DNA from: Capsulimonas corticalis | GTDB taxonomy: Bacteria; Armatimonadota; Armatimonadia; Armatimonadales; Capsulimonadaceae | DNA: 64,000 nucleotides | Reading direction: 5' to 3' | NCBI RefSeq assembly: GCF_003574315.2 | Contig: NZ_AP025739.1 | Location: 2,728,001 to 2,792,000, forward strand | In this document: positions 42,469-44,329 of the stretch, piece after piece | Layout: each line of letters opens with the position of its first letter | Numbering within the stretch: position 1 is the first letter of the stretch | The notes under the pieces: model-generated | The model's input: only the letters and a program-made list of their open reading frames with translations | Database searches by the model: none | Told to the model about the DNA's origin: nothing | Position numbers and translations under genes: made by a program

Positions 42469-42693
42469 ATGCAGCGCAGTCCACTCAAAAATCCGCAGCC
42501 GCCCGTTTGGAACGCGCCCGTCGCGCCCGCTTCGGCGTTTATGATGTGCCCGGCGGTCTGCATGATGGGCGCGAGCAATCAGGATCTGATGCTCTGGAGC
42601 CAGATCTACCAGCAAGCGTGGCGTCAGGCGCTGGCGCAGCCGCGTAAGCTTCATGTGAGCGCCAAGGATCTGCCGCGCTCGTGGCGCAATTAG
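42469..42693 (+). CDS. Small protein with MMCPAVCMM motif, unknown function
   Basis: 74 residues after GAGGAG at good spacing, with its own promoter. The middle reads SAFMMCPAVCMMGASNQ: two Cys three residues apart framed by four Met, a plausible Cu(I) or other soft-metal site. The rest is helical and amphipathic (LMLWSQIYQQAWRQALAQP), and the end is basic. No signal peptide. I do not recognise a family. It is convergent with the Met/Cys-rich gene at 43060-43548, which suggests a shared metal theme. Confidence 0.6.
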   Translation: MQRSPLKNPQPPVWNAPVAPASAFMMCPAVCMMGASNQDLMLWSQIYQQAWRQALAQPRKLHVSAKDLPRSWRN

Positions 42694-42795
42694 TTTCGTT
42701 TTGTAGAGATTTGTGTTGAGCGAAGATTGGGGGCGAGGACAAAAAATCCAGCCTCCAGTTTTCTGGACAGCCGGATCGGGTGGTTCGAATATTTC

Positions 42796-42898
42796 GATCT
42801 CCGTTGGCGCGGTCAATCGAAAATCAGGCGGATCTCCGCGCGTGCGGTCAATCCTATGGGTCCGATCTCCGGTTGTCCGGTCGATCGGAGTTGCGACG
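42796..42898. repeat. Degenerate direct repeats of about 34 bases
   Basis: The 366-base gap between the two convergent metal-motif genes contains GATCTCCG at 42796, 42831 and 42864, each followed 8-9 bases later by CGGTCAATC or CGGTCGATC. Units are 35 and 33 bases apart and otherwise diverged. No gene is seen in the rest of 42694-43059. Confidence 0.4.
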
Positions 42899-43059
42899 CT
42901 TCCAGTTGACTGGTTCTCCATGTGGCGCATGGAAAGGCGCGCAGGGTTGATGTCTTGAATGCGTTTGGCGACGCATCAAGGCAAAAGCGAGAGAGACCTT
43001 GGCGGGTCTCCATCAAAGTTGATTTCAGAAATTCGTTACGTCAGCGCTTACCGAAGTCG

Positions 43060-43548
43060 TTAGGCCATCATCGCGCAGCACACCGGCATATTGTTCATCA
43101 TCATCATGCACATGCAGCCCGCAGCCATCATGCTCTTCATGCACTCGCCGCACGCCTGAATCATTTTAGCACAATTTGCATCGCCGCTGGTGCATGTCAT
43201 CATCACGCCGTCTTCCATCATTTCGCATTCGCACTTCGCCATCATCATGTTGCAGCAGCAGACGGCCATGCCGTTCATCATCATGCAGCAGGAGCATCCG
43301 GCGCCTTCCATCATCATGCAGAGGCTCTGCATCATCTTCGCGGACATCTCATCTTCGCATTGACACATCATCTTCATGCCGCCCTCGCACATTTCAATCA
43401 TCATTGTGCATCGTGGCGTCATCATCATATTCATACCAGGCATCATGCCCGGCGCCATTCCCATGTTGGAAGCCATCGGCATTCCCATACCCGCGCCCAT
43501 CGGCATGCCGGTCATCATTCCGCGGTCCATCGTCATCATGGTGTCCAT
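43060..43548 (-). CDS. Methionine- and cysteine-rich protein, putative soft-metal (copper) binder
   Basis: The start at 43548 (MDTMMTMDRGMMTGMPMGAG) has GGGAG nine bases upstream. By my count the 162 residues include 54 Met and 21 Cys. The first 45 residues are Met/Gly/Pro-rich with no Cys before residue 47. The rest is two related units: about 60-104, with GAGCSCCMMMNGMAVCCCNM, and about 116-162, with AAGCMCMMMMNNMPVCCAMM. Met and Cys thiol/thioether clusters bind Cu(I) or Ag(I) in copper-handling proteins such as Csp and CusF-like proteins, but I cannot assign it to a family. No signal peptide or usual membrane segment is seen. Confidence 0.7.
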   Translation of the reverse strand: MDTMMTMDRGMMTGMPMGAGMGMPMASNMGMAPGMMPGMNMMMTPRCTMMIEMCEGGMKMMCQCEDEMSAKMMQSLCMMMEGAGCSCCMMMNGMAVCCCNMMMAKCECEMMEDGVMMTCTSGDANCAKMIQACGECMKSMMAAGCMCMMMMNNMPVCCAMMA

Positions 43549-43825
43549 TATCGTTTCTCCCAGTCGAAGTTTGTTGTCCGTCCGTAAGTCTCTCCCGGCG
43601 GCGACTAGATTATGGCCGCGCATGTGTACGAAATGCAACACTTTTTGCCAAAAATACGATTATTTTTTTGATAATAACTATCAATAAATTGTAAAATAAA
43701 CCAGTGCATTACTGGTAAAACTCGCCATTAGCCCTCTTCCCATCTCACTTGACAGACACCGCTCTTTTGTCCTAAAATACGCTCGTGAATATTGCAAAAC
43801 ATCTGTTCGTCCGGGGCTTCGCCCC

Positions 43826-44329
43826 ATGAGAATTATCGGTATCGACCCAGGGACGGCGATTACGGGATACGGCGTCGTGGAAAAGCGCGGCGACCGCATT
43901 CTTTTTTTGGACTGCGGCGCGATCACCACGCCGTCCACCATGGAGGCGCCCGACCGCCTCAAATTGATTTACGAAGAGTTCAACAAGCTGGTCGACCAGT
44001 ATCAGCCCCAGCACGCCGCGACCGAGCGCTTGTTCTTCAACAACAACGTCACCACGGGAATCCCCGTCGGCCGCGCCCTCGGCGTGATCCTGCTGGCGAT
44101 CTCGCAGCGCGGCCTCACCTGGACCGAGTACACCCCGACACAGGTCAAGAGCGCCGTGGTCGGCAACGGCCGCGCGGACAAGAAGCAGGTCCAGTTCATG
44201 GTCACCCGCCTGCTCACCCTCGCCGAAACCCCCAAACCCGACGACGCCGCCGACGCCCTCGCGATCGCCATCTGCCACTCCCATTCCGTCAAAGTCGCCA
44301 CCATGATCAAGCGCGGCGTGCGGGGGTGA
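43826..44329 (+). CDS. ruvC: Crossover junction endodeoxyribonuclease RuvC
   Basis: 167 residues, the usual length. Catalytic acids are seen in order: Asp in MRIIGIDPGTAITGYG, Glu in AATERLFFNNNVTTG, and the Asp pair in KPDDAADALAIAICH. RuvC cuts Holliday junctions as a dimer with the RuvAB branch-migration motor; ruvA and ruvB are not in the window. The hairpin GGGGC-TTC-GCCCC (43813-43825) ends directly before the ATG and no ribosome site is visible, so translation may be structure-limited. Confidence 0.95.
   Translation: MRIIGIDPGTAITGYGVVEKRGDRILFLDCGAITTPSTMEAPDRLKLIYEEFNKLVDQYQPQHAATERLFFNNNVTTGIPVGRALGVILLAISQRGLTWTEYTPTQVKSAVVGNGRADKKQVQFMVTRLLTLAETPKPDDAADALAIAICHSHSVKVATMIKRGVRG

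Follow-up and report, generated by a model that had tools for sequence, protein, structure and literature searches.

What is a protein for that is one third methionine and 13% cysteine, and is the open frame that encodes it a gene at all? Both questions are raised by positions 43060..43548 of the window, as we call the whole stretch of 64,000 nucleotides of Capsulimonas corticalis that was analysed. On the minus strand, this interval encodes a two-repeat protein of 162 aa, with the ATG at 43548, the coding sequence running down to 43063 and the stop codon at 43060-43062; the assignment is based on homologues, their alignment and the codon-position pattern. A Shine-Dalgarno-like GGGAG (43557..43561, minus strand, read from 43561 to 43557) lies upstream of the start codon. 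The sequence-only reading had assigned the gene to the strand with the ribosome site and had not named that strand, which is the minus strand. Its count of 54 Met (33%) and 21 Cys (13%) was reproduced exactly by our recount. The protein has no His, Phe, Trp or Tyr, a pI of 4.3 and a mass of 17.6 kDa, of which sulfur accounts for 13.7% (75 sulfur atoms). Against the background of the window's long genes (2.6% M, 1.4% C), the log10 probability of at least 75 Met and Cys in 162 residues is approximately -59, and a chance origin of this richness is excluded.

Compared with its nearest homologue, the window gene shows 30, 35 and 64 differences in the first, second and third codon positions of the minus frame, respectively; a minus-frame third position is read as a first position in the plus frame. 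Because most of the differences fall at the minus-frame third position, the His-rich open frame of the plus strand (42922-43587) was ruled out as an antisense reading. The N-terminus MDTMMTMDRGMM is common to the homologues, which occur in Armatimonadota, in Planctomycetota (Isosphaeraceae and Phycisphaerales) and in one Verrucomicrobiota MAG. This distribution proves that the protein is conserved, and, judged by its sequences, it represents a real, previously undescribed bacterial family. The Isosphaeraceae with homologues include Singulisphaera acidiphila, Aquisphaera and Paludisphaera, and the type strain S. acidiphila DSM 18658 is among the carriers. The family is rare in evenly drawn genomes (4 of 291 Armatimonadota and 5 of 392 planctomycetes), and several genomes have two copies of the gene. 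A mobile or viral origin was rejected, as no homologue was present in the plasmid or viral contig collections.

A homology and structure search, which the sequence-only reading had proposed, succeeded in finding homologues; neither Pfam, NCBIfam nor the PDB sequences gave a match, and no fold matched clearly. The best Pfam and NCBIfam hits of the window protein (E 0.3 and 1.9) are far below the curated cut-offs, and the members L008 and L026 have no match in either library. In the AlphaFold2 model, which was built on the family alignment, the core is predicted to form two ββαββ repeats, with eight strands and two helices in total and a pLDDT of approximately 90. The best comparisons of this model were a Foldseek hit with E 0.14 and a VIA-align hit with Z 5.8 to unrelated polymerases; neither is interpretable as a fold match, and fold novelty is not thereby proven. 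According to the model and to the profile comparison, repeat 1 (residues 45-103; 43240..43416, minus strand) has strands at 46-54 and 57-63, a helix at 67-79, and strands at 85-91 and 94-101, and repeat 2 (residues 104-162; 43063..43239, minus strand) has strands at 105-111 and 114-120, a helix at 124-142, and strands at 146-151 and 154-161. A Met/Gly/Pro head (residues 1-44; 43417..43548, minus strand) precedes them; it is mostly disordered or of low confidence in the model, in which residues 1-42 are the disordered part, and its length varies among homologues, next to a conserved core of approximately 118 residues. The head followed by two units had already been described from the sequence alone, and the alignment and the model show it again. 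Moreover, exactly two copies of the pattern GC-x-C-x-MMMN-x-M-x-V-CC, on which the two units had been recognized, are present, one at residue 84 and one at residue 144. A profile-profile comparison of the repeats gave a probability of 98.2% and an E value of 4e-14, a score that their common composition may inflate, and we consider the two repeats to be homologous on this sequence evidence. We infer a cytosolic location for the protein, and no signal peptide was seen by eye.

In most members, Met and Cys make up 38-49% of the core. Two members (L049 and L050) are nearly free of Met and have 28-29% Cys in the core, and the window member has 18% Cys in the core. The sequence-only reading had named a homologue lacking the Met/Cys pattern as evidence that would count against it, and one exists: the distant L026, from another Armatimonadota family (genome G190), has the same repeats with only 8% Met and Cys, and every other member keeps 31-49%. 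In L026 (1489-2217, minus strand), a basic Thr/Lys-rich N-terminal region of approximately 115 residues is followed by the two repeats almost without Met and Cys. Since the repeats are the same, the richness appears to have been either laid onto an ordinary scaffold or lost from it. The family also offers a natural experiment in protein design, in which one scaffold occurs with 8%, 31-33% and 38-49% sulfur residues. Outside L026, Cys 62 of repeat 1 and Cys 119, 147, 157 and 158 are invariant, and the latter four are kept, at the hairpin ends of repeat 2, in L026 as well. Across members, the percentages of Met and Cys are strongly anticorrelated (r = -0.90, not corrected for relatedness). In addition, Met accounts for 43% of the replacements at Cys columns and for 18% at columns whose consensus is neither Met nor Cys, again with relatedness uncorrected. 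Met and Cys codons differ at all three positions. That the two residues nevertheless exchange bears out the view that sulfur side chains as such are under selection, which would be the natural reading of the alignment. Conservation is higher at Cys columns (0.83) than at Met columns (0.71).

Recurrent neighbours were sought by an all-against-all comparison of the open reading frames around homologues and were named with Pfam and NCBIfam. Of about 24 Met/Cys genes, 9 have an Rrf2 regulator within approximately 1.2 kb, against an expectation of 0.05 (98 Rrf2 genes in 147 Mb); these loci are partly related and represent at least three lineages, namely Isosphaeraceae, the planctomycete G625 and the armatimonadote G005. 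A DUF2292 gene lies within 1.3 kb of five Met/Cys genes (0.006 expected). These DUF2292 neighbours score above the Pfam cut-off, and their best NCBIfam model is OscA (NF033785), at 31-34 bits and thus below its cut-off of 85 bits; OscA is a sulfur-starvation protein. The surroundings of the unlinked DUF2292 genes (L053, L064 and L067) and of a distant copy (L072) were uninformative. In G625, the Met/Cys gene, rrf2 and cysK stand in a row on one strand, and in G677 a cysK gene overlapping DUF2292 is followed by a gene for a small partner protein on the other strand and then by the Met/Cys gene. Locus L020 has the partner and rrf2, followed by genes for cystathionine β-synthase and cystathionine γ-synthase. 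Furthermore, cysteine dioxygenase (CDO) and an FAD-NAD(P)-binding protein are encoded near the Met/Cys gene in L006, L009 and L016, and a sulfonate-transporter binding protein (SsuA) in L018. The Phycisphaerales loci in which no Rrf2 gene was seen have a recurrent XRE-type helix-turn-helix gene (L014 3186-3716, L018 3794-4525 and L019 1631-2170, all on the minus strand), which in L018 stands before the sulfonate-transporter gene.

The protein thus very probably belongs to the metabolism of cysteine and methionine. The composition had earlier been taken to indicate storage or buffering of Cu(I), Ag(I) or similar, or scavenging of oxidants; no recurrent feature points to copper or silver, and the neighbours found again and again are genes of cysteine and sulfur metabolism. 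Through this linkage, the unexplained composition becomes a directly testable problem, whether the protein is a sulfur store, a metal sink or a redox buffer.

All 10 Rrf2 neighbours found match the NCBIfam CymR model (NF047409) at E<1e-20; their scores of 80-98 bits do not reach the equivalog cut-off of 195 bits, and CymR is still their best-scoring equivalog model. In Isosphaeraceae and G005, the Rrf2 protein nearest the Met/Cys gene lacks the Fe-S cysteine triad and ends in DWTI, DWVI, DYVL, DWVL or MYYI; the G625 protein has the triad and ends in GDGI. The absence of the triad is combined with a C-terminal Ile in L004 and L017 (the nearer copy in each), L012, L020, L023 and the L059 copy of the window genome, and with a C-terminal Leu in L007 and L009. 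In the window genome, the MYYI-tailed CymR-like gene lies at 6.19 Mb, far from the Met/Cys gene, where it follows genes for a NIL-domain protein and a sulfurtransferase, and three other Rrf2 copies that were read end without Ile and are Cys-rich at the Fe-S region. A C-terminal Ile is used by CysE, CdiA and Bacillus subtilis CymR for docking on CysK, and CysK stabilises CymR on DNA (PMC12895370, PMC4961446, PMC2940859). Because the C-terminal Ile is a signature of CysK docking, the Ile or Leu tail suggests, by analogy, that the linked Rrf2 proteins sense cysteine through CysK.

In the window, the partner gene (42469..42693, plus strand) is convergent to the Met/Cys gene and encodes 74 aa with a CP motif, one helix (37-56) and the C-terminus PRSWRN. 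Related proteins of approximately 75 aa accompany the Met/Cys protein across phyla, and in most loci the two genes lie on opposite strands. These small proteins share the helix motif Y-x-x-A-Y-x-x-A, often have the CP motif and end in an Asn that is invariant in 13 of 13 aligned members; the structure model is confident for one helix only, and no Pfam match was found. The partner is a second undescribed protein family. It is constant, even in the window, where no other sulfur gene lies near the Met/Cys gene, which suggests that the partner acts upon the Met/Cys protein or together with it. Between the two convergent genes, three imperfect 25-nt direct repeats, at spacings of 35 and 33, occupy 42795-42887.

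On its other side, the Met/Cys gene has a 277-bp promoter gap in common with a divergent gene that we named ruvC from its sequence by eye (43826..44329, plus strand). This gap holds the palindrome TGATAATAACTATCA (43669..43683), which agrees with 13 of the 14 specified positions of the 7-1-7 Fur-type box and is the sole match to that box in the window at up to two mismatches (0.05 expected). As a signal of the whole family, the Fur-like box was rejected, since none was seen upstream of the homologues. A common promoter palindrome was likewise rejected, since the inverted repeats differ among the 23 members whose upstream regions were compared and are mostly no better than shuffles. Riboswitch control was also rejected: a search with Rfam near 12 homologues gave only tRNAs.

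Because genes of this family stand repeatedly beside genes of cysteine synthesis, sensing and breakdown, a sulfur reserve or sink is more likely than a copper store. We tentatively prefer the view that the Met/Cys protein serves in the cytosol as a reserve of reduced sulfur amino acids, or as a sink for them, and that cysteine status controls it. A cell with cysteine and methionine in surplus would tie them up in this folded alpha/beta protein, whose 17.6 kDa contain 75 sulfur atoms, and in sulfur shortage, proteolysis would return them. A CymR-like Rrf2 protein reading cysteine status would set the expression of the gene, and cysteine synthase would probably dock on its C-terminal Ile/Leu tail. 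The role as reserve or sink, the sense in which the gene is regulated and whatever the partner does are our inferences. Ample cysteine makes CymR repress its targets, whereas a gene for storage would have to be regulated the other way round; of all parts of the proposal, the direction of regulation is the weakest. In addition, the context shows a pathway and not a job, and apart from the partner, no sulfur gene is close to the Met/Cys gene of the window. The cysteines, as the better conserved of the two residue classes and in part invariant, appear to exceed the needs of a mere store. The larger proposal would be that a dedicated sulfur store in the form of a protein exists in at least three bacterial phyla. 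In this store, Met and Cys would have refilled the positions of a folded scaffold up to half of all residues; Rrf2 and CysK, as a pair that senses cysteine, would switch it, and the small partner, with its invariant C-terminal Asn, would handle it. We regard this proposal as possible and as more doubtful than the reserve or sink itself. In a full-text literature search, with subscription papers outside it, we found no description of a bacterial protein sulfur reserve or of a Met-rich planctomycete protein.

The main rival to a sulfur reserve is a buffer or store for soft metals, which we consider somewhat unlikely. Thiolate and thioether clusters of Cys and Met along the sheets would take up Cu(I), Ag(I) or similar metals, and a cysteine regulator would control the gene since metal stress drains thiols. 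The CC and CxC motifs suit Cu(I), and, judged from the strand limits of the predicted model, the conserved pairs Cys 106/119, 147/158 and 148/157 would face each other across hairpins. The retention of Cys pairs at hairpin ends even in L026, the better conservation of Cys than of Met and the metallothionein-like L049 and L050 also agree with metal binding. However, copper and metal-efflux families are absent from the 25 commonest neighbour families, there is no match to Csp, metallothionein or another metal family in Pfam or NCBIfam, and the Fur-like box, which favors this reading in the window promoter, was not seen upstream of homologues.

A redox buffer or oxidant scavenger, whose Met and Cys would be sacrificial and regenerated by methionine sulfoxide reductase (Msr) and thiol reductases, with a regulator that also feels disulfide stress, is less probable again, and we regard it as improbable. 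The very high Met content would fit, and CymR-type regulators respond to thiol status. There is also a precedent in the Met-rich hypochlorite scavenger, a periplasmic peptide with an Msr partner (mBio 2015, PMC4436054, cited in PMC9751292). Against this reading, no signal peptide is apparent by eye in the Met/Cys protein, Msr is not among the 25 commonest neighbour families, and the conserved Cys pairs suggest ligands or disulfides instead of free targets. We find it very improbable that the protein is a carrier or sink of sulfane sulfur or sulfide, in which sulfurtransferases would load vicinal cysteines with persulfides or these cysteines would capture sulfide from cysteine turnover. The CC motifs are in its favor, as are the genes for rhodanese and a NIL-domain protein next to the CymR-like gene of the window genome and those for CDO and CysK next to homologues, but one third Met would be left unexplained, and the rhodanese gene does not adjoin the Met/Cys gene itself. 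Hardly credible, finally, is an antisense or low-complexity artefact instead of a protein gene, because, although the CAT/ATG sequence is repetitive and the opposite strand carries a His-rich frame, the aligned frames are open and 51-69% identical across phyla, and the third-position bias, the ribosome site and the high-confidence predicted fold all speak against it.

No precedent was found for the combination of composition and context in the Met/Cys family, and the libraries searched contain no family with such a density of Met and Cys on a folded alpha/beta scaffold. The sequence-only reading had set the protein apart from the four-helix Csp arrangement, and the predicted ββαββ repeats and the lack of a Pfam or NCBIfam match agree with it. 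Csp proteins are four-helix bundles that bind Cu(I) inside through Cys residues of the helices (PMC7558416). Csp1 and Csp3 resemble the Met/Cys protein in being soluble, rich in Cys and proposed to serve in storage, and Csp3 has no export signal; the Met/Cys protein differs from them in its modelled fold, its 33% Met and its position with cysteine genes. Metallothioneins such as SmtA and MymT are small, with approximately 25-30% Cys and CC/CxC motifs. The motifs, the Cys content of the L049 and L050 cores and the missing His, Phe, Trp and Tyr of the window member recall them, but the Met/Cys protein is larger, is dominated by Met in most members, is predicted to fold without metal and matches no family model. 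If it were a metal buffer, it would add a new form to a known kind. The hypochlorite scavenger is likewise Met-rich and possibly sacrificial; the Met/Cys protein differs in that it is Cys-rich, has no export signal by eye and has no Msr among its recurrent neighbours. The CymR-CysK system of Firmicutes is similar in that the Rrf2 neighbours are CymR-like with a C-terminal Ile or Leu and the G625 copy adjoins cysK, whereas here the CymR equivalog cut-off is not reached and the presumed target is a Met/Cys-rich protein of an undescribed kind. The Met-rich seed storage proteins of plants (delta-zein and 2S albumins) would be alike in working as a protein-bound sulfur reserve; their sequences are unrelated as far as is known, and the Met/Cys protein is bacterial and linked to cysteine genes. 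If it is a true sulfur reserve, it would represent a new kind of bacterial storage, and a sulfur store in protein form would be the counterpart, for sulfur, of the nitrogen store cyanophycin.
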